DNA of 31,669 nucleotides from IMG/VR virus record IMGVR_UViG_3300042433_000232, positions 1 through 31,669 of that record. One strand, given 5' to 3'. Every line of letters begins with the position of its first letter. The first letter of the stretch is position 1. A program made the position numbers and the translations under genes. This document shows positions 5,041 through 31,669 of the stretch, piece after piece. The notes beneath the pieces were generated by a model that was not told the origin of the DNA, ran no database searches, and worked only from the letters and a program-made list of their open reading frames with translations. The stretch comes from a virus.

Positions 5041-5072
5041 TAAGTTATTTAGTATTTAAGTTATTTAGTATT
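5041..5072. repeat. Tandem 16-bp duplication at the end of the GIY-YIG gene
   Basis: The unit TAAGTTATTTAGTATT occurs twice in a row (5041-5056 and 5057-5072) and begins a third time at 5073. It spans the last codons and stop of the minus-strand endonuclease gene, so it marks the 3' junction of that insert. Confidence 0.85.
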
Positions 5073-5853
5073 TAAGTTTAAGTGATTCTAAATATTCATC
5101 TGATTTCATATATGTGCCTTTTGGTAATTTTAACCCATTAGCTTTGTATAATTCTTTTATTTCTTGATAAATTGGTCTGGCTGCTTTCGCTTTTTGAAAT
5201 GTGCCATGTAATCCTGGATTATTATTTACAAAAATGTTTTTTTCATTTTTAATTTGCGTATAAACTGGATTTGTATCTCCTAGGAAAAAATGCGTTCCAT
5301 CTTTTATTTTTACTTTAGATGGATGATTATCATTTAAAAAATTATGCGTACCATCTTTAATCCTTTTTTGCGCTAATTCCCGTTGAAATTCTCCGCCAAT
5401 CCAATTATGTGTACCGTCTTCAAGTCTTTTTTGTTGAATTTTTCTTTGAAATTCTCCATCTCCCAAACAATGATGCGTTCCATCATCAACTCGTTTTCTT
5501 TGTATTTTTTTCTGTTGTTCGGAAGTTGTTCCGCCATCTAATCCATTCTCTAATTTTAAATTAGCCCATTCTTCAGATTCAATTATATTATATTTTTTTG
5601 ATAGGTTAATTGCTGTAGCAACTAATACATTAATATCATTAAATAATTTGCACCATAGTGTATCAACATTCGTACCGTGTTTTTTTAAATGAGCTAACCA
5701 ATAATCTCCAGATCCATTATATTTAAATGGGTTTTTAGAATTAGTTTTACATAAATATTTTAAACCTGTTGATTTATGTTGTTTTATCATTAAATATGTT
5801 GGTTTAAAATTTTTCATTTGTTTTTCTGTTATATAAATATTTTCGCTAGACAT
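5065..5853 (-). CDS. GIY-YIG homing-type endonuclease, DGTH-repeat type
   Basis: 262 residues, start MSSENIYIT at 5853 with an AAGGAGG site. The N-terminal ~105 residues match three other genes in this window. YLMIKQH and KYLCKT stand in the places of GIY and YIG, so the usual glycine after the second tyrosine is replaced by cysteine. NGSGDYWLAHLKKHG follows. The C-terminal part is a series of about 20-residue repeats centred on DGTH (for example KRLEDGTHNWIGGEFQ) and probably contacts DNA. The gene ends with a segment LPKGTYMKSDEYLESLK that recurs in the gene at 13126. It sits between two virion genes on the same strand and carries the shared hairpin leader. Nuclease activity is inferred. 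Confidence 0.78.
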   Translation of the reverse strand: MSSENIYITEKQMKNFKPTYLMIKQHKSTGLKYLCKTNSKNPFKYNGSGDYWLAHLKKHGTNVDTLWCKLFNDINVLVATAINLSKKYNIIESEEWANLKLENGLDGGTTSEQQKKIQRKRVDDGTHHCLGDGEFQRKIQQKRLEDGTHNWIGGEFQRELAQKRIKDGTHNFLNDNHPSKVKIKDGTHFFLGDTNPVYTQIKNEKNIFVNNNPGLHGTFQKAKAARPIYQEIKELYKANGLKLPKGTYMKSDEYLESLKLKY

Positions 5854-9986: not shown

Positions 9987-10064
9987 TATAAATAAAGTAT
10001 AGGTCGCGAGTTCCGAGGCTCCACCTATTCTAAACATTCTTACAATCGTTCAAGGAGAACAATA
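9987..10064 (+). promoter_or_regulatory. Hairpin leader of GIY-YIG gene, copy 2
   Basis: Contains a perfect late-promoter box TATAAATA (9987-9994), outer helix ATAGGT/ACCTAT (9999-10004 with 10023-10028), constant CGC, inner helix GAG/CTC, an 8-base loop, constant C, then TCTAAACAT and AAGGAG before ATG 10065. The stem sequences differ from the other copies but pair fully. Confidence 0.82.
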
Positions 10065-10919
10065 ATGCTCAGCAAAAATATTTATATGCCATATTTTTAT
10101 ATTATCCGACATAAAGAAACGGGTAAACAATATGCTGGATCTAGATGGGCAAAAGGTTGTCACCCATCAGAATTTATGCAAAAAGGCGGATATACTACAT
10201 CATCTATAATAATTAATTCTATAATAGAACGGGAAGGCGTTGATGTATTTGAAATAATAGAAATTATAACTTTAGATGAACTTATAATTCCGTTTAGCGT
10301 ACAATCTGTATATCAATATGAAACATGGTTTTTAAACGAATATAATTGTGCAACTTCGCCTGATTGGTATAATAAACATAATAATGAGGGAATGGTATTT
10401 GGAACCTCAGAATTTTATGACAAATCTAAAACAACATGTTTAGAAAAATATGGTTACGAATATTGTTTACAAGCTCCAGAAATACAGGAAAAGTCTAAAC
10501 AAACTTTATTAGATAATTATGGAGTAGATTCTCCTGCAAAAAATGAAGAAATTTTAAATAGAATGAAAGACACCAATATAAAAAAATATGGTGTAGAATT
10601 TCCCTTACAATCTGACGTAATAAAAGAAAATACTAAATTAACTAATTTAGAAAGATATGGTTATGAATATGGGTTGCAATCGCCGATAATAAAAGAAAAA
10701 TCGAAACAGACTTGTTTGGAAGTATATGGAGTAGACCATCCATCAAAAGATCCAGAAATAAAAGAACGAATATTTAATACATTTAAAAAAACTAATTTAG
10801 AAAAATATGGCGTGGAATTTCATGTTAATATACAAGTTACTTGTCCATATTGTAATAAAATTGGCAATAAACCAATTATGATGCGATGGCATTTTAATAA
10901 TTGTAAATTAAAAACATAA
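10065..10919 (+). CDS. GIY-YIG homing-type endonuclease, KYG-repeat type with zinc-finger tail
   Basis: 284 residues. The nuclease domain differs from the other four in this window: YFYIIRHKETGKQYAGSRW supplies Tyr-x-Tyr-Ile and QYAGS in place of GIY and YIG. From residue ~120 there are five or six repeats of about 28 residues with the core LEKYGVEFPLQSDVIKE, found in many phage mobile nucleases and probably DNA-binding. The last 25 residues hold CPYC and H-x4-C spacing (CPYCNKIG, then WHFNNC), a likely zinc finger. Start at ATG 10065 behind AAGGAG. It interrupts the row of holin-like genes. Activity and target are not known. Confidence 0.78.
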   Translation: MLSKNIYMPYFYIIRHKETGKQYAGSRWAKGCHPSEFMQKGGYTTSSIIINSIIEREGVDVFEIIEIITLDELIIPFSVQSVYQYETWFLNEYNCATSPDWYNKHNNEGMVFGTSEFYDKSKTTCLEKYGYEYCLQAPEIQEKSKQTLLDNYGVDSPAKNEEILNRMKDTNIKKYGVEFPLQSDVIKENTKLTNLERYGYEYGLQSPIIKEKSKQTCLEVYGVDHPSKDPEIKERIFNTFKKTNLEKYGVEFHVNIQVTCPYCNKIGNKPIMMRWHFNNCKLKT

Positions 10920-12457: not shown

Positions 12458-13048
12458 ATGAAAATCTTACAAACATATTTGATTATGTTTGTTATGCTCT
12501 TTGCTACTACTACATTTGCTAATGATATTTTTATTGAACAGGTTGGGAGTTTATCTGATATTACATTAACACAACAGGGTGTTGATAATCGTATTGGGAC
12601 AGCTCTTAATCCTTCATTTTTTGGTGGAAGTAGTGATGTGTCGACTATTGAACAAATTGGTTCTAGAAATGAATTAGATTTGATCGTAAATGGTGATAAT
12701 ACAACTGTTACATTAAGTACAACAGGTAATGATAATAAAGAAACAATTAATTGTGGAGTCAAAACTGCTGTGACATGTAACAATACTACAATCAATCATA
12801 CTATATCGGGTGATAATAATACTATTGACACTACAATTGGTGCTACAACTAATAGTAAAATGACTGTAACTGGTGATAGTAATGCTATTACTCATACAAG
12901 TACAAGTTCTGGTATTGTATCTGCTGATTTAACTTTAACTGGTAACAGTAATACAATTGATTTAACTCAAAGCGGAACTTTGGATAAGAGTATAAAAATT
13001 GAAAGTACTGGTTCTAACAATAATATTACTGTTAATCAATCCAATTAA
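12458..13048 (+). CDS. Curlin-like secreted amyloid-type protein
   Basis: 196 residues, starting directly after the csgG stop. The Sec signal peptide ends near TTTFA. The mature protein is a series of imperfect curlin-like repeats: IEQVGSLSDITLTQQGVDN, IEQIGSRNELDLIVNGDN, TVTGDSNAITH, LTLTGNSNTIDLTQSG and a final GSNNNITVNQSN. The spaced Gln/Gly/Asn pattern is that of CsgA/CsgB, which fold as stacked beta strands. It is the likely substrate of the CsgG pore encoded next door. It has a central Cys pair (residues ~88 and ~95) that is unusual for curlin. No CsgE or second curlin is seen here. Confidence 0.72.
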   Translation: MKILQTYLIMFVMLFATTTFANDIFIEQVGSLSDITLTQQGVDNRIGTALNPSFFGGSSDVSTIEQIGSRNELDLIVNGDNTTVTLSTTGNDNKETINCGVKTAVTCNNTTINHTISGDNNTIDTTIGATTNSKMTVTGDSNAITHTSTSSGIVSADLTLTGNSNTIDLTQSGTLDKSIKIESTGSNNNITVNQSN

Positions 13049-13125
13049 TATAAATAGACGGTAGTCGCGGATCCCCCGATCCCACTACCTCTAAACATTT
13101 TTACACTTAATCAAGAGGATTAACA
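13049..13125 (+). promoter_or_regulatory. Hairpin leader of GIY-YIG gene, copy 3
   Basis: Perfect TATAAATA (13049-13056) immediately after the stop of the curlin-like gene, outer helix GGTAGT/ACTACC (13060-13065 with 13084-13089), constant CGC, inner helix GGAT/ATCC, a 6-base loop, constant C, then CTCTAAACAT and GAGGA before ATG 13126. Confidence 0.82.
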
Positions 13126-13974
13126 ATGTCCAGCGCAAATATTTATATTATCACAGAACAACAGCGTTTAAATTTTAAACCAACATATCTTTATATCAAA
13201 CAACATTCAGTTACTGGATTAAAATATTTCGGAAAAACGATTAAATCTGATCCAATAAAATATAAAGGATCTGGTATTAGGTGGTCAAAACATATAAAAA
13301 AACACGGAACTAAATTTGTTACCACTTTATGGTATAAATTATATACAGATATAGATGAATTATTATCCGTTGCTATAACTCTATCTGAAATTTATGATAT
13401 CGTGGATTCTGATTTTTGGGCGAATATTGTGCCAGAAAATGGGTTAACTGGCGGAGATTCTGAAACTGTTAGAAGGCAACAAAAAGAGAAAGTTGCAGAA
13501 GGAACCCATAATTTTTTAGGTGGGGAGATTGGGGGGAGTTTTTCAAGAGAACGAGTTTTAAATGGAACCCATAATTTTTTAGGTCCAGAATCAAATAGAA
13601 AGCGAATAGCTGATGGAACACATCCATTTTTAAATTCCGATTTTCAAAGAAATGTTCAATTAAAATTATTATCTGAAGGGACTCATATATTCCTTAATCC
13701 AGAATTTCGAGAAAATCAATCTAATAGAGTTAAAGAAATGAATGCAACAAACGTCTCTAATGGTACGCACCCTTTTTTAGGACCGGAGTTGAATAAAAAA
13801 CGAATAGCTGATGGGACACATCCTTTACTCACTTTATCCAAACAAAGATCTAATAGAAAAATATATCTTGACATAAAAGAATTAGCTAAAACATTAAAGA
13901 TTAAATTACCACCTGGGCTAAATATGAAATCTGATGAATTTTTATTGAAATTTAAAGACAAATATTTGACTTAA
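13126..13974 (+). CDS. GIY-YIG homing-type endonuclease, GTH-repeat type
   Basis: 282 residues. The N-terminal domain is closely related to those of the genes at 5853, 17600 and 25015: INFKPTYL-like lead, YLYIKQHSVTGLKYFGKT with an intact YFG motif, and KGSGIRWSKHIKKHG. The C-terminal part contains repeats with the core GTHNFLG or GTHPFLG, each about 20 residues, and ends with LPPGLNMKSDEFLLKFKDKY, almost the same end as the gene at 5065-5853. The stop is one base before the start of the FecR gene, so the insert sits cleanly between curlin-like and FecR genes. Nuclease activity and target are inferred. Confidence 0.8.
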   Translation: MSSANIYIITEQQRLNFKPTYLYIKQHSVTGLKYFGKTIKSDPIKYKGSGIRWSKHIKKHGTKFVTTLWYKLYTDIDELLSVAITLSEIYDIVDSDFWANIVPENGLTGGDSETVRRQQKEKVAEGTHNFLGGEIGGSFSRERVLNGTHNFLGPESNRKRIADGTHPFLNSDFQRNVQLKLLSEGTHIFLNPEFRENQSNRVKEMNATNVSNGTHPFLGPELNKKRIADGTHPLLTLSKQRSNRKIYLDIKELAKTLKIKLPPGLNMKSDEFLLKFKDKYLT

Positions 13975-15065: not shown

Positions 15066-15779
15066 ATGAAAAAACTTGTTTTAGCACTATGTTTAGCGTT
15101 TTCTACTGCTGTATTTGCAGGAACTATTAACGAACAATGTCCGCAATTAACTGTAAACGGAACTCCACAATATGAATCTCAGCAAGGCGATCAAGAAATT
15201 TGTCATGCAAATTATGCAGTAATTCATAGATGCGGAGTAAAGGCTCCAGTTGCAGTATTTGAACATTTAACCAAAGAAGATATTACTGGTCCAGCTAAAC
15301 GAAAAGATAATTTTCACCCTGATTCTGATGTTTCCCCGCAATGTTCAGCTACTTTAGCCGATTATGCTACTGTTGGTAAAACTCATGATAGAGGACATTT
15401 ATCTCCAGCTGGAAACAATACTCAAAGTGCTGATATTATGAGCGAAAGTTTTGATTTGAGTAACATGGTAGCTCAGGTAGCAAACAATAATCGTGGGATC
15501 TGGAAACAATTAGAAACTAAAGAACGCGAAATGATTTCAACTGCAGGAACAGATTATTATATTATTTCTGGTGGCATTTTTGATCCTGGATACTCTGTAA
15601 CTGGTAATGGTTTGGGTATTCCAACTAGATTGTATAAAATAATTGTCGAGAAAAATAATAAATCCGTGCAAGCATATTTAATGCCAAATGCTGCGTTACC
15701 TGTGACAGATTTACCGAAATATCAAGTGTCGCTAGAAGAAGTTGAGCAAGCAACGCAAATGAAATTTAATTTAAAATGA
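15066..15779 (+). CDS. Secreted DNA/RNA non-specific endonuclease (NUC1/Serratia type)
   Basis: 237 residues after an ACGTGAGGT site. The signal peptide is MKKLVLALCLAFSTAVFA. The active-site motif DRGHLSPAGN lies at about residues 107-116; the His is the general base and the downstream Asn-rich segment (MVAQVANNNRGIWKQLE) carries the metal-binding Asn. The family degrades DNA and RNA with Mg2+. The four Cys residues in the N-terminal half (Cys25, 46, 56, 96) suggest disulfides in the periplasm. Its stop overlaps the start of the cyclase gene by four bases (ATGA), so the two are translationally coupled. It may degrade released nucleic acid or competing phage DNA; the role is inferred. Confidence 0.85.
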   Translation: MKKLVLALCLAFSTAVFAGTINEQCPQLTVNGTPQYESQQGDQEICHANYAVIHRCGVKAPVAVFEHLTKEDITGPAKRKDNFHPDSDVSPQCSATLADYATVGKTHDRGHLSPAGNNTQSADIMSESFDLSNMVAQVANNNRGIWKQLETKEREMISTAGTDYYIISGGIFDPGYSVTGNGLGIPTRLYKIIVEKNNKSVQAYLMPNAALPVTDLPKYQVSLEEVEQATQMKFNLK

Positions 15780-17524
15780 GAAAAGTTTTATTATCTCCAT
15801 GGTTTTCGTTGGTAACTCTAGCATTAGTAATAGTGCTACGGGTTGCTGACCCTAGTTTCATAGAATCGATTCGACTTCGATATTTCGACACAATTATAAC
15901 AAGTCAGCAAGTTAAACCTTCTGAACAAATTCGTGTTGTTAATATTGATGATGAAACGATCAAACGCTATGGTCAATTCCCATTTCCGCGTGACAAATAT
16001 GCTGAGATAATCCAGACATTATTTGACCATCAAGCTGGATTAGTTGTTTTTAACGTATTCATGCCAGAATCTGATAGGTTTGGAAAGGACAATGAACTCA
16101 AAAAAATTATTGACACCTATCCAGTTATCTTACCTGAAGTTGGGGTTAATGATTCTACTGCTAGTGTTGCCCCTAAAATTGGCGTATCCGAAATCGGTGA
16201 ATCTGCCAGACCTTGGGCGCCACAGTACAAGGGAATACAATCTAACATCCCAGAATATCAGGGTGCAGCAGGCATTGGAGTCGTTAATACCCTCCCAGAA
16301 ATTGATGGAGTCACCAGAAGAATACCCATGGTTGTATCAGCCACAGATACTCTCTACCCGTCCATCTCGATGGAAACGCTTAGAGTTGCAGCTGGAGACC
16401 CTAGCTTTCAAATTAAGTCTAATGAATCGGGGATCGAAGCAGTTAGAATCCCTCAGTTTGGAAAAATTGATACTGATGAATTTGGAAGAATCTGGATCGA
16501 TTGGTCGAACATACCGATGGAATATTCCTTCAATAGATTACCCGATAGTTTTGATGGTGGAATTGTTATTGTCGGGCTTACTGGACGAGGACTCAATAAT
16601 CCTGTCGCAACAGCTAGAGGGAACGTCTATCCGCATCAACTTCAATCTACGGTATTAGATACAATTTTAAAAGGTACTAATATTTCTAGACCAGATTGGG
16701 CAACAGTTGTTGAATTATTATCAACATTATTATTGAGTATTGTTTCTATATTATTAGTGCGGTGGAAATATGGATTTATTCCTGTTATTACAGCTATTAC
16801 CTCTATACATTTTGGTGTTAGTTATATTTTTAACAATTATCATTACCTTTTGGACGCTACGATTCCTGTTCTGGGCATTTTTCTGGTGTATGCTCATAGT
16901 TTCACTGTTAAATTTATTACTGAACTAAACGCTAAATTGCAAATTAAACGACAATTTGGAACTTATTTAAGTCCTGCATTGGTAGAAAAGTTGCAAAAAA
17001 ATCCTGAGTTGTTAACTCTTGGTGGAGAATCTAGAGAATTGACAATTTATTTTTCTGATATTAGGTCATTTACAACGCTGTCTGAGCATTATAAAACTGA
17101 TCCCATGGGGTTAACCAATTTAATAACCCGATATATGGATAAAATGTTACCTATTATAATGAAAAATGAAGGTACTGTTGGAAAACTTATTGGTGATGCT
17201 ATTATGGCATGGTGGGGTGCTCCATTAGATGTAGAAAATCACGCATCAATGGCTATTAAAACTGCAAAAGAAATGGAAATAGCATTAGCAGAATTAAATG
17301 AAGAATTAATATCTGAAGGTAAACCTCCATTACATGTTGGTGCTGGTATTAGTACTGGAACTGTATTTGTTGGTAATATGGGATCTTCTGAAAGATTTAG
17401 TTATGATATATTAGGGGATGAGGTTAATCTTGCAGCAAGATTAGAAGGACAAACTAAAGGATACGGAGTATCTTTAATATTGAGTGAAAACGCATTAAAT
17501 AGATTAAAGTTTGAAAATGTATAA
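15776..17524 (+). CDS. CHASE2-domain class III adenylate/guanylate cyclase, N-terminal and catalytic part (gene split)
   Basis: 582 residues. One membrane helix near residues 8-25 and a cluster of three at ~305-380 flank a periplasmic CHASE2 sensor (VRVVNIDDETIKRYGQFP-like start, then REKYAEIIQ-like FPRDKYAEIIQTLFDHQ). The catalytic domain has IYFSDIRSFTTLSEH (metal Asp, ~residue 425), KLIGDAIMAWWGAP (second metal Asp, ~472) and DEVNLAARLEG (catalytic Asn/Arg, ~549). It stops at LKFENV, just before the last conserved strand F-x-E-L-D-x-V-x-VKGK. That missing end is encoded after the GIY-YIG insert, at 18504, so the gene has been cut by the cassette. The mature product is probably two-chain. 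The CHASE2 region is GC-richer than the rest. Confidence 0.88.
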   Translation: MRKVLLSPWFSLVTLALVIVLRVADPSFIESIRLRYFDTIITSQQVKPSEQIRVVNIDDETIKRYGQFPFPRDKYAEIIQTLFDHQAGLVVFNVFMPESDRFGKDNELKKIIDTYPVILPEVGVNDSTASVAPKIGVSEIGESARPWAPQYKGIQSNIPEYQGAAGIGVVNTLPEIDGVTRRIPMVVSATDTLYPSISMETLRVAAGDPSFQIKSNESGIEAVRIPQFGKIDTDEFGRIWIDWSNIPMEYSFNRLPDSFDGGIVIVGLTGRGLNNPVATARGNVYPHQLQSTVLDTILKGTNISRPDWATVVELLSTLLLSIVSILLVRWKYGFIPVITAITSIHFGVSYIFNNYHYLLDATIPVLGIFLVYAHSFTVKFITELNAKLQIKRQFGTYLSPALVEKLQKNPELLTLGGESRELTIYFSDIRSFTTLSEHYKTDPMGLTNLITRYMDKMLPIIMKNEGTVGKLIGDAIMAWWGAPLDVENHASMAIKTAKEMEIALAELNEELISEGKPPLHVGAGISTGTVFVGNMGSSERFSYDILGDEVNLAARLEGQTKGYGVSLILSENALNRLKFENV

Positions 17525-17599
17525 ATAATGTGTAGATCGCGATACTACTAATATCCATCTACTCTAAACATATTCTTAACACTATTACGAGGAACAGTT
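17520..17599 (+). promoter_or_regulatory. Hairpin leader of GIY-YIG gene, copy 4
   Basis: Perfect TATAAATA (17520-17527) overlapping the premature stop of the cyclase gene, outer helix GTAGAT/ATCTAC (17532-17537 with 17557-17562), constant CGC, inner helix GATA/TATC, a 7-base loop, constant C, then TCTAAACAT and GAGGA before ATG 17600. Confidence 0.82.
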
Positions 17600-18511
17600 A
17601 TGTCCAGCGAAAATATTTATACACATACAATATCAGAATCACAACGATTAGAATTTAAACCTACTTGGTTATACATTAAATATCACCCAGTAACAGGCTT
17701 ATCTTATTTTGGTAAGACGATTAAAAATCCATACAAATATAAAGGATCTGGTCCATATTGGAAAAACCATATAAAAAAGTATAATAGTAAATTTGTAGAA
17801 ACTTTATGGTGTCATTTATTTGTGAATATTGATGAATTGGTTGAATATGCTTTATGGTTTTCTAGTGTGAACGATATTGTAGAATCCACATTATGGGCTA
17901 ATATGGTATTTGAAGATGGATTAGGTGGAAGAGGAGTAAGTGGTGCCGGTAATGGTATGTACAATAAACAGCACACAGAAGAAACGAAAAAATTAATTTC
18001 TGAAATAAAAACAGCTAATCCGGTAAAACTGTTTGCAGAAGATAATCCACGATTTGGGAAACCTGGAACATTTAAAAATAAAACCCACACTAAAGAATCT
18101 AAATTGAAAATTTCAAATTCTAAAAAGAATAAAACTTATGAAGAAATTTATGGCTCGGTTGAAAAAGCTCAAATAATGAGAGAAAAACGATCAACCGAAT
18201 CTAAAAATAGATCTGTATCTGAAATTACTAGAAAAAAATTAAGTTTAGCCAATATAGGAAAGACTAGAACTGAACAACAAAGATTAAATAATTCAAAAGC
18301 TCAAAAAGGATTACAAGCAGGATCCAATAACCCAAGAGCTTTAAAAATTAAAGCGATATCTCCAGAAGGCGAAATATTCCATATTCATGGAGAATTTAGA
18401 ATATTTTGCGAATCTAAATCATTATCTCAATCAATAGCAGGAAAAATATTGAAACATAACCATAAACCAAAATCCGGTAATTGTATTGGGTGGAGTTTTT
18501 CTTATGAATGA
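17600..18511 (+). CDS. GIY-YIG homing-type endonuclease splitting the cyclase gene (NUMOD3/NUMOD1-type tail)
   Basis: 303 residues. The N-terminal domain (LYIKYHPVTGLSYFGKT, then KGSGPYWKNHIKKY) is close to those at 13126 and 5853. The tail is different: several NUMOD3-like segments (GNGMYNKQHTEETKKLIS, then RKKLSLANIGKTRTEQQR) and a final IENR/NUMOD1-like module IKAISPEGEIFHIHGE with a helix-turn-helix-like ending GNCIGWSF. So the nuclease has been recombined with another DNA-binding tail. Its stop overlaps the start of the second cyclase fragment (ATGAATGA) and its own end supplies that fragment's ribosome-binding site GGTGGAG. The insertion point in the cyclase is the likely homing site. 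Confidence 0.8.
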   Translation: MSSENIYTHTISESQRLEFKPTWLYIKYHPVTGLSYFGKTIKNPYKYKGSGPYWKNHIKKYNSKFVETLWCHLFVNIDELVEYALWFSSVNDIVESTLWANMVFEDGLGGRGVSGAGNGMYNKQHTEETKKLISEIKTANPVKLFAEDNPRFGKPGTFKNKTHTKESKLKISNSKKNKTYEEIYGSVEKAQIMREKRSTESKNRSVSEITRKKLSLANIGKTRTEQQRLNNSKAQKGLQAGSNNPRALKIKAISPEGEIFHIHGEFRIFCESKSLSQSIAGKILKHNHKPKSGNCIGWSFSYE

Positions 18512-18770
18512 TTTTGTTGAACTCGATACAGTAGCAGTCAAGGGAAAAAAAGAAGGGATTAAGATTTTCACGGTAGCAAATCCACCACCAGAACATCAAT
18601 TATATCTAGAAGCATATTATGCTGGGGATTGGAAATCTGCTGCGATTATTTGTAAACATTTATCCGAACAACCAGGAGATCTTCAACATTATTATGAATT
18701 AATGTTAGAACGTATTTCTGGAGAATGTCCAGATAACTGGACTGGTACATATCACGCAACTTCCAAATGA
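18504..18770 (+). CDS. C-terminal fragment of the CHASE2 cyclase
   Basis: 88 residues from ATG 18504; a TTG at 18486 is in frame but the ATG has GGTGGAG 9 bases upstream. FVELDTVAVKGKKEGIKIFTV continues the cyclase catalytic domain exactly where the gene at 15776 stops (joined: NRLKFENV + NDFVELD). The rest (YLEAYYAGDWKSAAIICKHL, then CPDNWTGTYHATSK) is the TPR-like C-terminus seen in full-length CHASE2 cyclases, which often end with a p-dWdGv pattern. It is intact and has its own start, so the two pieces may associate without splicing. A terminator follows directly. Confidence 0.8.
   Translation: MNDFVELDTVAVKGKKEGIKIFTVANPPPEHQLYLEAYYAGDWKSAAIICKHLSEQPGDLQHYYELMLERISGECPDNWTGTYHATSK

Positions 18771-18799: not shown

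Positions 18800-18800
<1 letters not shown>
18774..18800. terminator. Bidirectional terminator between cyclase fragment and groEL
   Basis: GGGAGC, CGAA, GCTCCC followed by TTTATCTTTT, with an A-rich run on the other side. It ends the plus-strand operon and the convergent groEL gene. Confidence 0.85.
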
Positions 18801-20431
<1,631 letters not shown>

Positions 20432-21288: not shown

Positions 21289-21321
21289 AGAAAACGGTTT
21301 ATTCTGTTTCGAGGAAAACCG
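21289..21321 (-). terminator. Terminator after the tmRNA coding piece
   Basis: On the minus strand CGGTTT (21321-21316) and AAACCG (21300-21295) form a 6-bp stem, followed by TTTTCTT. It fits the end of the tmRNA transcript. Confidence 0.6.
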
Positions 21322-21324
21322 CAA

Positions 21325-21475
21325 AAACCCAACTATAATTTTAAGCTGCTAGAGCAGTAGAATTATAGAAAGCGTCGTTTTTAGCTTCGCCATTTACTTA
21401 TTTTATGCTGATTACGTCAGTCATCTCTCGATTCTCCAGTGTTCTTTGATCTCAACGTCGAATCTGTTCACCCCC
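21325..21475 (-). ncRNA. ssrA: Two-piece (permuted) tmRNA, coding piece
   Basis: The minus strand begins GGGGGTGAACAGATTCGACG at 21475, matching the conserved 5' end of tmRNA (GGGG, then GAUUCGACG). The tag frame reads down to a TAA stop at 21343-21341: VNGEAKNDAFYNSTALAA, with the ALAA end recognised by ClpXP-type proteases. The exact resume codon is uncertain (GTA, AAT, GGC or a later codon). The stop lies in a helix CTATAATT/AATTATAG with an inner TGCT/AGCA hairpin, as in tmRNA helix P5. The 3' limit of the mature piece is estimated. Confidence 0.85.
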
Positions 21476-21571
21476 ATCAGAAACACACTTAAACTGGTCC
21501 GGCAGAATTTTTTCATTCCAGTTCGTTTATGTGACCGTCGTCACTACTTAGCTGCGGCAAAAGTATGTTTC

Positions 21572-21637
21572 TGGTGGAGGTGGGGGAATAATGCTATCCC
21601 CGTCCGCCAAAACTATTATAACACCTTCAACGAATAC
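21572..21637 (-). ncRNA. ssrA: Two-piece (permuted) tmRNA, acceptor piece
   Basis: This piece is transcribed before the coding piece, the permuted order. It ends CACCTCC-ACCA at 21582-21572, with CCA encoded. CACCTCC pairs along all seven positions with GGGGGTG of the coding piece, and the third pair is G-U, the G3-U70 identity element of alanyl-tRNA synthetase. The inserted segment 21571-21476 extends the pairing (CAGAAACA with TGTTTCTG), forming a precursor hairpin to be processed. The T-arm stem is GGGGA/TCCCC but its loop is 9 bases and lacks the usual TTCRA. The 5' limit is not clear. Confidence 0.8.
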
Positions 21638-21733
21638 TTTAAAATCACACTGCATAAGGACATAACGGACTCAAACCGAGTTCTTTGATACTATCTTACC
21701 TTATCGAACCTGAACACCTAGTGTGATTTTAAA
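21638..21733. repeat. 14-bp inverted repeat enclosing a structured segment
   Basis: TTTAAAATCACACT (21638-21651) and AGTGTGATTTTAAA (21720-21733) are perfectly complementary, separated by 68 bases. The interior holds further pairings (ATAAGG/CCTTAT and ACTC/GAGT around 21671-21691). It directly precedes the acceptor piece of the tmRNA on the minus strand and may be a processing stem or extra tmRNA domain. It has tRNA-like length but no canonical tRNA arms. Confidence 0.7.
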
Positions 21734-23486: not shown

Positions 23487-23935
23487 CGTTGCCACTCCAC
23501 AATTGTATAATCAACCATACCTTCTAAATTATTTTTAATAATATCTCGAATAATGTTCCAGTCACCACCTGCTAAACCAGCACCAATTAATGGTAACCCA
23601 ATTTTTTTACCTTTAAAATCCGTAGCAATTAATCGCATAGAATCATTGATTGCTTGATAATTTTGCTTTAGGTCATTATATCCAGGCATGTATTGAGTGT
23701 ACGCATTTACAATTGTTAAACCCTTATCCATATAGGTATGTGCGCTATATGAACCCAATTTTGTTATATCACCCTGTTCTGTTGATTTGTCTGACAAATA
23801 CGCTTCTGGATATCTATTCCTAATTTGTAGAGCAATCCCTGCGCCCATAGCGCAAAAACAATTACAACCATGAACGATAACATCGAACTCGCCAGCATCA
23901 AATAAATCTAATAAATCACCTTTAATAATTTTCAT
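23483..23935 (-). CDS. Macro domain protein, likely ADP-ribose-1''-phosphate phosphatase type
   Basis: 150 residues; start ATG 23935 overlaps the ligase stop (ATGA). The whole chain is a macro domain: IVHGCNCFCAMGAGIALQI (ligand loop), YPEAY, GDITKLGSY and GLPLIGAGLAGGDWNII (second loop) resemble the Poa1p/ALC1-like family acting on ADP-ribose-1''-phosphate or ADP-ribosylated targets. Being coupled to a DNA ligase, near a NAMPT gene, it could recycle ADP-ribose derivatives or counter ADP-ribosylating defences. The specific substrate is inferred. Confidence 0.87.
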   Translation of the reverse strand: MKIIKGDLLDLFDAGEFDVIVHGCNCFCAMGAGIALQIRNRYPEAYLSDKSTEQGDITKLGSYSAHTYMDKGLTIVNAYTQYMPGYNDLKQNYQAINDSMRLIATDFKGKKIGLPLIGAGLAGGDWNIIRDIIKNNLEGMVDYTIVEWQR

Positions 23936-24882
23936 TCTATATCCTCTAAAGTATTAGCAACAGTTTTATCATCCCTAACGCGAGAAAAAATTGGTAGGAA
24001 TAAAGATTTAATATCTGAATCTCGGTTTGAAATAATACAATTATATTTTACCTCGATAATTTTACCAACATAAGATTCTGGGTTATCTCGCTCACCTCGT
24101 TTATGTTTAAATCCAGAACCAACATTTACTCGCAATCGACCACAAGCAGTTTCACAAATTAATGATCCCAACATACCTTCAAATTGAGTTCCTGGAGTAC
24201 CATATTCAAAACCAACAACCAATAGATCCATAGGGTCTTCTGCTTTTAATTTTAATTGGTATTTAGATCGTTTGGCTTCCCATACACCATCCATTGCTTT
24301 AAGAATTCCGCCTTCTTCGCCTCGTTCTAGATTACGCTGATATTTTTGCATAACTTCTTCGCGAGAATTTACAATCTCGGATTCAACAATTTGTAATTTA
24401 GTTTGATTTTCTGGAACTGCTAGCCCAACAAATTTAAATCTTGTAGCATAACCAACTGAACAATATTCGTTTAAAAAATCATCATAAGGAATATAATCCC
24501 AGAGAACAACATACAACCCCTTAGCTTCTTCTGAGGTAATTGTTCCACGAACAGCTTTTGTTACATAACCATTAGATACTTTGCGTTCTGCTACTCGACC
24601 ATCAGGATAGCGCCACATTAATTCGCCATCTAGAATACATCTTTCATGTGTTGCAATTTCAATATCATCAAAACATGAGATATCTAGAATATTACCATTT
24701 CTGGTTGTAGCCGATACGAATTTTCCACCATCAAACTCTAGATTAATTCTAGAACTATCCATTTTACAATTATGGACCAGAATATTGTCAGCAAAAAAAT
24801 TATTAGTATTTTCGACCGTTATATCGTATAACAAATTATCACACTCTATCTCAACTACATTTTCTATTTTCATAGTTCTCAT
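23932..24882 (-). CDS. lig: ATP-dependent DNA ligase, C-terminal part with C-intein
   Basis: 316 residues. Residues 1-38 are a C-intein: YDITVENTNNFFADNILVHN followed by +1 Cys39, the block F/G pattern with terminal His-Asn. The extein begins Cys-Lys-Met-Asp-Ser-Ser-Arg, the adenylation motif I (K-x-D-x-x-R), with Lys40 as the AMP-accepting lysine. The rest matches T4 gp30: CILDGELMW, GTITSEEAKGLYVVLWDYIP, RGEEGGILKAMDGVWEAKRSKYQLKLKAEDPMD pattern, KVNVGSGF-like RVNVGSGF. This half has its own ATG and a weak ribosome-binding site. It must be joined in trans with the product at 26819 to regenerate an active ligase. Confidence 0.9.
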   Translation of the reverse strand: MRTMKIENVVEIECDNLLYDITVENTNNFFADNILVHNCKMDSSRINLEFDGGKFVSATTRNGNILDISCFDDIEIATHERCILDGELMWRYPDGRVAERKVSNGYVTKAVRGTITSEEAKGLYVVLWDYIPYDDFLNEYCSVGYATRFKFVGLAVPENQTKLQIVESEIVNSREEVMQKYQRNLERGEEGGILKAMDGVWEAKRSKYQLKLKAEDPMDLLVVGFEYGTPGTQFEGMLGSLICETACGRLRVNVGSGFKHKRGERDNPESYVGKIIEVKYNCIISNRDSDIKSLFLPIFSRVRDDKTVANTLEDIE

Positions 24883-24914
24883 AATAAATTTCCAATTTAA
24901 AGCTGTATATTGAT

Positions 24915-25014
24915 AATAAATAGTTGACCGTTTAAATGAATATTAAACGATGCTTATCGCGGAATAGCAGTTCCCATAAGCACTAATCATCAACTATCAA
25001 ATATAGGAATCGAT
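24915..25014 (+). promoter_or_regulatory. Hairpin leader of GIY-YIG gene, copy 5, with extra helices
   Basis: AATAAATA (24915-24922), then an outer helix AGTTGA/TCAACT (24922-24927 with 24990-24995), an added hairpin CGTTTAA/TTAAACG (24929-24949), and the common element: helix TGCTTAT/ATAAGCA (24951-24957 with 24976-24982), constant CGC, inner helix GGAA/TTCC, 6-base loop, constant C, and CTAATCAT. It is thus a three-way-junction version of copies 1-4. Confidence 0.8.
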
Positions 25015-26103
25015 ATGACCAGCAATAATATTTATACTATTACCGAACAACAACGATTAAATTTTAAACCGACTTATTTAATGATTAAACAACATTCAAT
25101 AACAGGTAAAAAATATTTTTGTAAAACTGTAACATCCAACCCTTTAAAATATTCTGGGTCAGGGGATTATTGGTTAAAACATATAAAAAAGCACGGAGTT
25201 CAATTTGTCGAGACAATATGGTATAAATTGTATACTGATATAGACGAATTAGTAAACTATGCTTTACAATTTTCTATCGAAAATGATATTATTAAATCTA
25301 AACTCTGGGCGAATAAAATGTTAGAAAACGGGTTATCTGGCGGGTTATCTAAAGATTTGTTATCAGAACAGACCATATTAAATATGGTTAATGCTCAATT
25401 AAATAGATCCCCAGAAGCTAAATTTATCTCTAAAACAAAATATAAAAATACTATACAGAATAGATCAGAGTTTAAAAAATTAGAACTATCTAATAAAATT
25501 AGAAAAACAAAATTAGCTATGACTTCTGAACAAAAAGCAGAACAAAAACGTAAAGAATACGAAACAAAAGCAAATAGATCCCCTGAACAAAAAGCAGAAC
25601 AAAAACGTAAACAAAGCGAGTCTTATTTAAAGACATTTAATTCTAAATCTGATGACAGTAAACGCGAACAATATACAAAAAGAGCAAAAACAATGTCACT
25701 AAAATCTGAAGAAGAATTAGCTTCTATCTACGCAAAAATAAGTCGCCCAGGTAAATTAAATCCTATGTACGGTAAACCTCGCCCAGATTTAATTGAAAAT
25801 AATAAAAATCCTATAAAACGACAAAAACAAATACAAACGCGCAAAAAATTAGATCTTGAGAGAAAATTACGTAGATTTAAAATTGAAACTGAGATTAAAT
25901 TTTACGAGAAAATATTAGAATTATCTTCAATCCACTCAACGTACACTAAATCCGGAAAAATAAATTTTAATACATTAGCTAAATATTTTCCTGAGTATAA
26001 TGGTTCAACTCAAGCAACAACAGCAGCTCTGCGTAGATTTTATGAATATTACACATCAACTAAAATAATATCGGATGACGATAATTCATCTACTCTAATA
26101 TAG
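25015..26103 (+). CDS. GIY-YIG homing-type endonuclease lying antisense in the split ligase intein
   Basis: 362 residues. The N-terminal domain (MTSNNIYTITEQQRLNFKPTYLMIKQH, shown in parts, with KKYFCKT in place of YIG) is a relative of the genes at 5853, 13126 and 17600 and shares the YxCKT variant with the gene at 5853. The middle is highly charged (two nearly identical SPEQKAEQKRK repeats) followed by NUMOD3-like GKLNPMYGKPRP. The C-terminal end has its own helical domain (NFNTLAKYFPEYNGSTQ). It is transcribed opposite to the ligase and its last 55 bases overlap the end of the N-intein gene, so its C-terminus is encoded by antisense of the intein. It is likely the intein's mobility nuclease. 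Confidence 0.78.
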   Translation: MTSNNIYTITEQQRLNFKPTYLMIKQHSITGKKYFCKTVTSNPLKYSGSGDYWLKHIKKHGVQFVETIWYKLYTDIDELVNYALQFSIENDIIKSKLWANKMLENGLSGGLSKDLLSEQTILNMVNAQLNRSPEAKFISKTKYKNTIQNRSEFKKLELSNKIRKTKLAMTSEQKAEQKRKEYETKANRSPEQKAEQKRKQSESYLKTFNSKSDDSKREQYTKRAKTMSLKSEEELASIYAKISRPGKLNPMYGKPRPDLIENNKNPIKRQKQIQTRKKLDLERKLRRFKIETEIKFYEKILELSSIHSTYTKSGKINFNTLAKYFPEYNGSTQATTAALRRFYEYYTSTKIISDDDNSSTLI

Positions 26104-26819
26104 GCGTCTTTATTGATACACCAAATTAAATGATTTCCAGTTAAAGGTTTGGTGTATTCTCCGTTTTCCATTTTAAGTTTATACCATTTATGGTGTATAG
26201 TTTGTTTATTAACAAATTTATCTAATACCGTATTATATTCAACTTTATTTGTATGGTGATTAAATGATTTAACTTTAATATCTTTAATATCAGATTCAAT
26301 TAATTGTTTTATCGTCATATTACCCTCTGTTGTATTAAGAACCCAATCTTCCGATAAACACTGAAAAATAGCTGGATATTTAATATTCTTTTCGGTTTTC
26401 TCATTGAATTTGCCGCACAATAAAACTGGATATTCTGGAATTAAATCTTTCCAAATTTTATTTACAGTTTTTGCGCTAACGCCACATTTTAAATCGCGTT
26501 CGATAATACGATATAAAACTTCTTGATCATCTACTGGCAATTTACCTAGTATCATAGATACATATTCGATAGCTTCATTACCAGTAAGCTCTCTATTACA
26601 AATATTAACTTTAATGCTGGATAAAGCGCCAATCAAATCTACGGTAATACCGTTATTTGGAGAAACTGGAGGACGTTTTTTAATCCAATATTTAATTCTT
26701 GGGTTATAAGCAAATAAAAATACAGCTCGCACAACCGGATTATCAACATATGATTTTAATAGAGCGATTTTGTCGTTAGTGCCTGATGTTGCTGCTAGTT
26801 GATTCAATAAATTTAACAT
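26049..26819 (-). CDS. lig: ATP-dependent DNA ligase, N-terminal part with N-intein
   Basis: 256 residues. Residues 1-153 correspond to the T4 gp30 N-terminus (RIKYWIKKRPP, then ELTGNEAIEYVSMILG, VLYRIIERDLKCGVSAKTVNKIW, and EKNIKYPAIFQ just ahead of motif I). Cys154 begins the intein: CLSEDWVLNTTEGNMTIKQL (block A), and GNHLIWC (block B, with the His) near residue 233. The gene stops after SSSDIILVDV, where a full intein would continue into its endonuclease or linker. With the C-intein at 24882 it forms a split intein of about 103 + 38 residues. A strong early promoter lies just upstream. Confidence 0.9.
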   Translation of the reverse strand: MLNLLNQLAATSGTNDKIALLKSYVDNPVVRAVFLFAYNPRIKYWIKKRPPVSPNNGITVDLIGALSSIKVNICNRELTGNEAIEYVSMILGKLPVDDQEVLYRIIERDLKCGVSAKTVNKIWKDLIPEYPVLLCGKFNEKTEKNIKYPAIFQCLSEDWVLNTTEGNMTIKQLIESDIKDIKVKSFNHHTNKVEYNTVLDKFVNKQTIHHKWYKLKMENGEYTKPLTGNHLIWCINKDAYIRVDELSSSDIILVDV

Positions 26820-30293: not shown

Positions 30294-31669
30294 TTAAACC
30301 TTGTCAGTAATAGCTCTAATTTCCGCCAATGTTGTTGTTTTAACTAATTGACTATCTTTAAATACAGTTTCTAAACAACCGTGGCGTTCTTGATCAACAG
30401 ATACTTGATCAACTAATTTATAAACACCATCTGTTTGGGTAACCATTAATAACCCTTTAGCCGATTTCTTAATACCATTATCAGTTTTTGGATCTTTAAA
30501 GATTTCTACACCTGCACCATTAATCTCAGCATAGGTAGATTTCATGGCCATACCGTGAGTATCTCTGGTAACATATTGGAAACTGAATGAACCAATACCC
30601 AGCACAACATTACTTGATGCAAAACCTTTTTGTTCTAATCTACGGAAAATTTCCTCAGCACGTTTGTATGTGATAGAATCACCGTAAATAGCACCAATAT
30701 GAGTATCTAATACTTTGTAACCGTTTTCAGTTAAAGTGCCACCGAAAATATCCCATAAACATTCAATTAAACCTTTTTGTTCAGGCGAAATCTCAACTTC
30801 TTCAAATTCAAGCACCCTACTGTTATCAACATAATAGTATTGTTTATCATAACGATTCCACTCAATTTCTACTTTAGCTTTATAATATTTGTCGCCAGCT
30901 TTATAAATTCTGGTTACAATATCTTCACCGCATTCGCCATGAGGAGTATCATTACGAATTTCGGATTCTATATCGTTTAACATATAGTTTTTAATCGAAT
31001 CCAAACAGTCAATAGCAACATATTTTGCCGGCACAACTGGAATATCAATACCACACAGAATTTCAACTGGATCACCAGAATCTGGACGAATAATAACACG
31101 ACCATCTCTAGCCATAATATCAGATTTTAATCGCACCAAATAATCGGTAATAACTTGCCAGAAATCCCATGTATCACTAACAATAGATACCATACCGCTT
31201 GGATAAATTTCGGTAATTAATCGTTTATAAGTATCAAATTCATCTTCTTTAGTACCGCTGCACATAACACTGTGTTCTGTAGCAGGAACCGAAACGCCAA
31301 CAATTTCTGTATCGCTATCAGCAAAATAATAATCCTCAGCCAAATCAATTGCTGGGATATTATCTGTACCATAAGCGCCAGCTGCTAATACAGCAAAACC
31401 AGACGATGCAGCTGCGTGGCGACCTGCCATACCGCGAAAACCAAAATCATGGAACTGATACCGAACAAACTCTTTATCGGCTCCAGTAAGCTCTGCATAA
31501 CGCAAACCCAATTTCTTGTAAGCCATATAAGTTGTGGCTGATGTAATTGGTTGCCATAATTCAGCTGATAATACCGATTCTAACATATTAGTTACCCAGA
31601 AAAATTCTGGTTTAGTATTAACCACAGTTAACATTGGAACGCCATATGGAACCATAGAACCTTCTGGTA
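30294..31669 (-). CDS. nadV: Nicotinamide phosphoribosyltransferase (NAMPT/NadV), N-terminus outside window
   Basis: At least 457 residues; the frame is open beyond the Met at 31655 (upstream residues read P-E-G-S), so the gene continues past the window edge. It turns nicotinamide and PRPP into NMN. Hallmarks: PYGVPMLTVVNTKPEFFWVTN, FHDFGFRGMAGRHAAASSG, VPATEHSVM, VSIVSDTWDFW, GRVIIRPDSGDPVEILCG, KVLDTHIGAIYGDSI, and VLGIGSFSFQYVTRDTHGMAMKST. Catalytic-site residues of family NAMPT are in these motifs. Phage NAMPT genes have been linked to restoring NAD+ against NAD-depleting defences, usually with an NMN adenylyltransferase, which is not seen in this window. Confidence 0.95.
   Translation of the reverse strand, partial: PEGSMVPYGVPMLTVVNTKPEFFWVTNMLESVLSAELWQPITSATTYMAYKKLGLRYAELTGADKEFVRYQFHDFGFRGMAGRHAAASSGFAVLAAGAYGTDNIPAIDLAEDYYFADSDTEIVGVSVPATEHSVMCSGTKEDEFDTYKRLITEIYPSGMVSIVSDTWDFWQVITDYLVRLKSDIMARDGRVIIRPDSGDPVEILCGIDIPVVPAKYVAIDCLDSIKNYMLNDIESEIRNDTPHGECGEDIVTRIYKAGDKYYKAKVEIEWNRYDKQYYYVDNSRVLEFEEVEISPEQKGLIECLWDIFGGTLTENGYKVLDTHIGAIYGDSITYKRAEEIFRRLEQKGFASSNVVLGIGSFSFQYVTRDTHGMAMKSTYAEINGAGVEIFKDPKTDNGIKKSAKGLLMVTQTDGVYKLVDQVSVDQERHGCLETVFKDSQLVKTTTLAEIRAITDKV

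Follow-up and report, generated by a model that had tools for sequence, protein, structure and literature searches.

What becomes of a signalling enzyme when a mobile nuclease gene settles inside its coding sequence? This question is raised by a viral contig of 31,669 nucleotides (nt; IMG/VR virus record IMGVR_UViG_3300042433_000232, positions 1 to 31,669, hereafter the window), in which the gene for a CHASE2 adenylate cyclase is interrupted by a 982-nt homing-endonuclease gene (HEG) cassette at 17522-18503. With a probability of roughly 0.8, we read this arrangement as a free-standing HEG cassette, made up of a late promoter, a structured RNA leader and a nuclease gene, lying inside the phage cyclase gene and leaving it a gene in pieces; the cassette would have arrived by homing with co-conversion, and two chains would be made that together keep the enzyme active. 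The window cyclase adds a new case to the known 'genes in pieces', with a new sort of enzyme affected and an unusually complete evolutionary series.

The interrupted cyclase gene and its parts

A first-pass annotation of the window had held that a GIY-YIG cassette cuts the cyclase at LKFENV and that the remainder resumes at 18504. Indeed, the open reading frames (ORFs) are as it described them, near-identical empty alleles exist, and the ends of the insert are defined. The parts of the gene are the following.

15776-17524, + strand: cyclase chain 1 (582 aa), ending ...RLKFENV; it carries the CHASE2 sensor, the transmembrane part and the greater portion of the class III catalytic domain
17520-17527, + strand: TATAAATA, a T4-type late promoter element whose internal TAA is the stop of chain 1; the same element stands before at least 189 distinct leaders
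17522-17524, + strand: TAA stop codon of chain 1, contributed by the cassette, inside TATAAATA
17600-18511, + strand: homing-endonuclease-like gene (303 aa) with a GIY-YIG-like N terminus; Pfam NUMOD3 3.1e-7, PHROG homing endonuclease 5.8e-9
18492-18495, + strand: Shine-Dalgarno (SD) sequence GGAG for chain 2, inside the IGWSF codons of the nuclease C terminus and 8 nt 5' of ATG 18504
18504-18770, + strand: cyclase chain 2, with the last catalytic strands (ELDTVAVKGK...IFTV) and the C-terminal tail; contiguous with chain 1 in intact relatives

Chain 1 is matched in Pfam by CHASE2 (PF05226, 1e-38) and by Guanylate_cyc (PF00211, 2.7e-19), the latter profile being covered only to position 156 of 183. 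The catalytic motifs FSDIRSF, GKLIGDAIM and YDILGDEVNLAAR can all be read in its sequence, and the class III residue set (the metal-binding Asp, the Lys/Asp base pair and the transition-state Asn/Arg) is complete on it; the roles of these residues are general knowledge of the family. The C-terminal strand pair of the class III fold is absent from chain 1 and sits on chain 2; its counterpart in intact L004 aligns to the final part of the CyaB catalytic domain (3r5g). The tail of chain 2 comprises 87 codons and found no match in a Pfam search, including none for the 'TPR-like' label given to it earlier. Chain 2 is in the +1 frame relative to chain 1 (offset 2728 nt), and read-through of the stop would therefore be unable to fuse the chains.

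The means of translating both parts appear to be supplied by the cassette. As had been claimed, the start of the insert makes the premature stop, since TATAAATA provides the TAA. The ribosome site proposed for the second part is also present as the GGAG noted above, and L009, a related contig, keeps the same GGAG-to-ATG arrangement and spacing; the overlap between the HEG and chain 2, however, is 8 nt (ATGAATGA, 18504-18511) and not the 4 nt first described. The GIY-YIG identity of the nuclease needs similar qualification. Its motif YIKYHPVTGLSYFGKT is visible, yet Pfam gives no significant GIY-YIG match and only NUMOD3, beside the PHROG homing-endonuclease family, and the label 'GIY-YIG' would rest on the motifs and relatives of the protein. 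About 75 nt of non-coding DNA lie 5' of the HEG and none between the HEG and chain 2. No Rfam family, introns included, matches the region 17480-18620 even at E<=5, in agreement with the earlier statement that there is no room for an intron core around the ORF, and Pfam finds no intein in chain 1. By these results and its PHROG and NUMOD3 matches the cassette is a nuclease gene without an intron or intein.

These features suggest how the locus might have arisen and how it might work. The HEG or a relative would have cut an intact allele, and the break would have been repaired from a split donor by homing with co-conversion. Translation of chain 1 would then end at the promoter's TAA, late transcripts that begin directly behind TATAAATA would serve for the nuclease, and chain 2 would be started at ATG 18504 on the SD sequence lent by the nuclease C terminus. 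Finally, chain 2 would dock on chain 1 and complete its catalytic fold by adding the two final strands, so that cyclase activity survives. Both the production of the two chains and their joining are predicted here from sequence.

Intact, split and re-fused relatives

Among fetched environmental loci the cyclase is a single open frame in 106, a count that includes re-fetched copies of some contigs, and the natural state of the gene is therefore unsplit. For example, in L004, L005 and L006 the tail follows directly after the catalytic part in one ORF (...ELVK-DDFPLTELDCIAVKGK...). Comparison with these homologues, suggested earlier as a check, defines the insertion site and finds no natural stop there.

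Four contigs carry a split cyclase (the window, L009, L038 and L394), and no frameshift was seen in their cyclase halves. L009 has the same insertion site as the window and a different HEG. In L038 and L394 a second site is used, in the transmembrane part (in L038 between residues 331 and 335), and the L394 HEG is 57% identical to that of L038 and only 33% to that of the window, which points to entry of the same cyclase gene at two sites by two HEG lineages. The L394 cassette has the same leader and ends chain 1 with a TAA of its own, and its HEG overlaps chain 2 by ATGA; L038 is without the leader, and its HEG starts at a GTGA overlap with chain 1.

The same series holds traces of later change. 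By translation, L009 retains the leader and, behind its different HEG ORF, a 23-residue remnant of a window-type HEG C terminus (GKVLKYNRKSISVNYIGWSLYYV, 13 of 23 identical), from which it seems that the HEG was exchanged while the split persisted. In L007 the cyclase is one ORF again, with an in-frame insertion LGGFLHMNE, and its scar TTGGGTGGGTTTTTACATATGAATGA aligns to the 3' end of the HEG including the former start codon of chain 2 (score 18 against a best of 13 in 500 shuffles); the simplest reading of this alignment would be that the cassette was lost and the halves re-fused. Another intact cyclase, at L012:6700-6760, carries some 14 additional residues (ECLGDAHMKMQILP) at the same position, which could be an older scar or natural variation.

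The window gene itself is a mosaic, in which one tract differs in origin from the remainder.

16930-18572, + strand: replaced (co-conversion) tract, with exon sequence of the L009/L007 type in a gene otherwise 97-100% identical to L004-L006, as defined by sliding identity and mismatch positions

Over residues 1-370 the window is 97-100% identical to L004-L006, L006 falling to 93% at the extreme N terminus, and from about residue 605 onwards the identity is again 93-100%. Across residues ~400-600 it is about 50-65%, and there L009 and L007 match at about 70-84%. Dense mismatches to L004 are confined to 16930-17521 (592 nt upstream of the insert) and 18504-18572 (69 nt downstream), and the replaced flanking exon amounts to ~660 nt in total. 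Occupied and empty alleles both exist, with converted flanks. Recent homing with co-conversion from a donor resembling L009/L007 would be expected to leave a footprint like this mosaic.

The exchange of this tract swapped the catalytic domain, replacing the Ser found at the usual Asn position (GDTVSLTAR in L004) with Asn (GDEVNLAAR in the window). Across the family the two residues are equally frequent at the transition-state position, 49 loci having Ser and 49 Asn among 98 scored. Ser in place of the transition-state Asn (GDxVS, not GDxVN) thus occurs in half of these phage CHASE2 cyclases, including L004, L005, L006, L008 and L019, and such Ser-type enzymes may be weak or altered.

Selection on the two halves was estimated by the Nei-Gojobori method. 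Between the window and L009, both of which are split, the catalytic block of chain 1 has a non-synonymous difference (pN) of 0.099 and a synonymous difference (pS) of 0.70, and the tail has a pN of 0.157 and a pS of 0.54; between the L009 tail and that of intact L004 the values are 0.183 and 0.56. Synonymous change therefore exceeds non-synonymous change in both halves while split, and neither resembles a sequence in free decay; both look conserved by selection. With start, stop and ribosome site kept as well, the earlier claim that both halves can be translated is supported.

Some points weigh against a split enzyme that was acquired by homing and still works. Ordinary recombination or an assembly chimera would give a similar mosaic. 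Synonymous divergence (dS) is near saturation and the tail has so few codons that the selection ratios are rough, and part of the purifying selection could predate the split. Moreover, the window is a metagenome assembly in which a chimera of two related phages could produce the mosaic, though L009 shows the split independently. Misassembly of two co-occurring phages could also be held to account for mosaic and split together: the window is a single metagenomic contig, and the 74,280-base record IMGVR_UViG_3300044641_007991, which is the same at identical coordinates wherever compared, is probably from the same assembly and was not counted as independent. This explanation needs two clean switches within 1.7 kb, however, and it leaves aside L009, a contig of another metagenome in which precisely this site is occupied by a different HEG, with a homologous leader and the C-terminal remnant; we consider misassembly very unlikely.

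A more serious objection is that the cyclase was inactivated, chain 1 being a truncated, dead product and chain 2 a remnant in decay. A HEG that enters a conserved coding region should in most cases harm the gene, and the re-fusion in L007 suggests that the one-chain form has an advantage. Against this stand the low level of non-synonymous difference that each part shows between two split genomes, the chain 2 start and SD sequence kept in the window and L009, and the four split contigs whose halves are free of frameshifts, and we regard inactivation as improbable. If the insert were instead an intron (group I, group II or undescribed), splicing would restore one normal cyclase; HEGs often ride in introns, and L007 resembles what an excised message could look like. 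This we find scarcely probable in view of the missing Rfam match, the shortage of non-coding sequence around the HEG, a cassette 5' end that is the promoter and leader seen before many free-standing HEGs, and a chain 2 with its own SD sequence and ATG. Production of one chain by read-through or by ribosomal bypassing has a precedent in T4 gene 60, where 50 nt are skipped (T4 record), but here some 980 nt would have to be skipped and chain 2 is in another frame, which leaves this route next to no credence. The split, two-chain cyclase thus remains our preferred reading.

An RNA leader shared by mobile nucleases

The 5' end of the cassette raised a second question, because after TATAAATA the conservation between the window and L009 far exceeds that of their nucleases, and the hairpin shows compensatory changes. 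Its elements in the window, downstream of the promoter element, are as follows.

17532-17562, + strand: leader hairpin, with P1 17532-17536/17558-17562, internal loop TCGC/CA and inner stem 17541-17544/17552-17555; 59.2 bits with model R1
17590-17593, + strand: AGGA ribosome site of the nuclease (ATG 17600), which most leader copies place in the loop of another small hairpin (P2); P2 is weak in the window copy
17605-17619, + strand: CAGC-N5-TATTTA block, conserved at the nucleic-acid level whatever the reading frame

A first IMG/VR pattern scan returned many copies with TAAATA upstream and an SD sequence and start codon downstream, and an alignment of 52 distinct leaders gave a structure model with P1 (5 bp), a TCRC/YA internal loop, an inner stem, and P2 with the SD sequence in its loop. 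Most of these 52 were picked by a pattern that fixes the inner stem and not P1 or P2. Paired cells make up 94.5% of the alignment as compared to 75.6 +/- 0.9 in shuffles, double-change cells number 128 against 36.5 +/- 4.4, and 10 of 12 pairs show double changes; the signal collapses when the alignment is slid by 1-3 columns. A second, different pattern recovered at least 112 distinct cores, and among the 112 listed P1 is fully paired in 100 and paired at four of five positions in 12 (mean 4.89 pairs against 3.52 shuffled). Folding of single leaders is weak, with z-scores mostly of -1 to -2 and one above 0, and for the window copy the fold of lowest energy differs from the model; therefore, the case for the leader structure rests on covariation.

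In all, at least 189 distinct leaders were collected from IMG/VR. In 180 of the 189 listed, TAAATA is followed 3-5 nt later by the start of P1, where a T4-type late transcript is expected to begin, and P1 would therefore be a 5'-terminal hairpin. Both P1 and P2 lie downstream of TATAAATA. An exact TATTTA is found in 136 of 163 leaders as compared to a background of 0.9%, whatever the position and frame of the start codon, and the CAGC-N5-TATTTA block is therefore conserved as nucleic acid. Pairing of TATTTA with TAAATA on read-through RNA could hide the start codon, by analogy with I-TevI, where a hairpin on read-through RNA hides the ribosome-binding site (RBS; PMC2988022). For this long-range pairing the flanking positions were without covariation (P = 0.42 and 0.08), and 11 TACTTA variants break it.

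Nearly all of the genes behind these leaders encode GIY-YIG, HNH or, once, TnpB nucleases, and a few leaders precede no long ORF. When 51 proteins encoded downstream were compared with Pfam, 16 matched NUMOD3, several matched HNH-type domains, three SegE_GIY-YIG, one GIY-YIG and one TnpB, and PHROG homing-endonuclease family 314 matches 29. Where a long ORF lies upstream of the leader, it ends at the TAA of the module itself in 25 of 75 among the matches listed. We lean towards the view that the 5' end of the cassette represents a portable module, so far undescribed, by which mobile nucleases of T4-like environmental phages are expressed; it would comprise the late promoter, the covarying TCRC/YA hairpin, the hairpin with the SD sequence in its loop and the CAGC-N5-TATTTA block. 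It would be common to unrelated nuclease families (GIY-YIG, HNH and one TnpB) and would often lend a stop codon to the gene that it follows or enters. Nuclease genes equipped with it could then take up positions within or after many phage genes and be expressed late while sparing the genes themselves.

The leader appears undescribed, as it had no Rfam match, a literature search returned no paper describing it, and its consensus had no blastn match in 50,697 phage records. Model R1 found nothing in HTVC008M, Melnitz, 44RR, phage 25, Aeh1 or T4, but the quick first pass of this search overlooked a weaker copy already known (24939 in G001), and absence here is not proof. Ten pattern matches in cellular genomes look like chance and are without the P1 stem and SD pattern.

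Two other contigs show the leader in different settings: at L154:1530-2817 it stands (model 45 bits) before the gene for a TnpB RNA-guided nuclease (guided_TnpB 281.8 bits), and at L330:133-1900 directly before the gene for a T4-like terminase large subunit, with no HEG; this leader may have stayed behind after HEG loss.

Known genes in pieces and other features of the window

The first-pass annotation had likened the locus to T4 39/60, a fair comparison, to which Aeromonas phage Aeh1 adds a closer one. There the free-standing HEG mobE lies in the coding region of nrdA and divides it into two ORFs, with a late promoter and an RNA hairpin before the HEG as in the window, and the products of the two ORFs form a working enzyme (PMC2988022). 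Aeh1 differs in pairing an HNH nuclease with a ribonucleotide reductase, whereas the window pairs a GIY-YIG-like nuclease with a signalling cyclase. The Aeh1 hairpin belongs to the type by which the RBS is sequestered on early RNA, whereas the window hairpin lies downstream of the late promoter, and R1 had no match in the Aeh1 genome. Split replication genes are also seen in T4 (gene 39/60 with mobA) and in Aeromonas phages 25 and 44RR (gene 43), with the HEG adjacent in T4 and phage 25; the seg43(25) hairpin lies upstream of the RBS and does not sequester it. All three phages differ from the window in the genes affected and in the absence of an R1 match. A further class is that of fractured genes in which split inteins occur and a free-standing HEG lies between the gene halves (Dassa et al. 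2009, as cited in PMC10448857). The DNA ligase of the window has this form, whereas its cyclase halves are without intein sequence and would not be joined by a peptide bond.

Taken together, the cyclase relatives provide a natural, reversible series within one gene family (intact genes, genes split by one HEG or by another, and a re-fused gene with a scar), along with a second independent site, and make it testable how an enzyme, here a signalling enzyme, survives being cut in two. The leader is the part most likely to surprise a specialist. Its presence before unrelated selfish nucleases suggests that they use one late-expression RNA module, which would aid the annotation of mobile nucleases in environmental phages and could explain insertion at low cost.

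The gene neighbourhood is a curli-FecR-cyclase operon as in the T4-like phages HTVC008M and Melnitz, and the window is a viral contig related to these phages, from a virus of aquatic bacteria. It shares with pelagiphages a curli (type VIII secretion system, T8SS) module of CsgF, CsgG, curlin repeat, FecR and cyclase (PMC9599517); in HTVC008M and Melnitz the cyclase is intact, whereas in the window it is split, and the curli operon has HEG cassettes within it and next to it. Indeed, the window holds five good R1 copies, each 5' of a HEG-like gene, of which four lie outside the cyclase.

13047-13127, + strand: leader copy 2, before HEG 13126-13974 in the curli operon; R1 39.8 bits; PHROG intron-like DNA endonuclease
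9987-10076, + strand: leader copy 3, before HEG 10065-10919; R1 47.6 bits; PHROG homing endonuclease
24939-25026, + strand: leader copy 4, before ORF 25015-26103 (GIY-YIG-like by sequence), between the halves of the split-intein DNA ligase; R1 41.4 bits
5855-5924, - strand: leader copy 5, before HEG 5065-5853 (- strand); R1 32.0 bits; PHROG intron-like DNA endonuclease

The ATP-dependent DNA ligase (23932-26819, - strand) is divided by a split intein, its N part ending CLSEDWVLNTTEG... and its C part beginning ...FFADNILVHN/C, where the slash marks the junction (intein_Cterm 27.3 bits, cut-off 15.6); the leader-bearing ORF 25015-26103 lies between these halves on the opposite (+) strand. Similarly, a T4-like terminase at L357:3694-6385 is in two parts (Terminase_6N and Terminase_6C) with a leader and HEG between them, and part 1 ends in an intein-like CFNGETQ. 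Elsewhere in the window, a permuted tmRNA of alphaproteobacterial type (21293-21683, - strand; RF01849, RF04321) is consistent with a Pelagibacter-like host, and a phage GroEL (by sequence; 18800-20419, - strand) and a nicotinamide phosphoribosyltransferase (30294-31655, - strand) are encoded.

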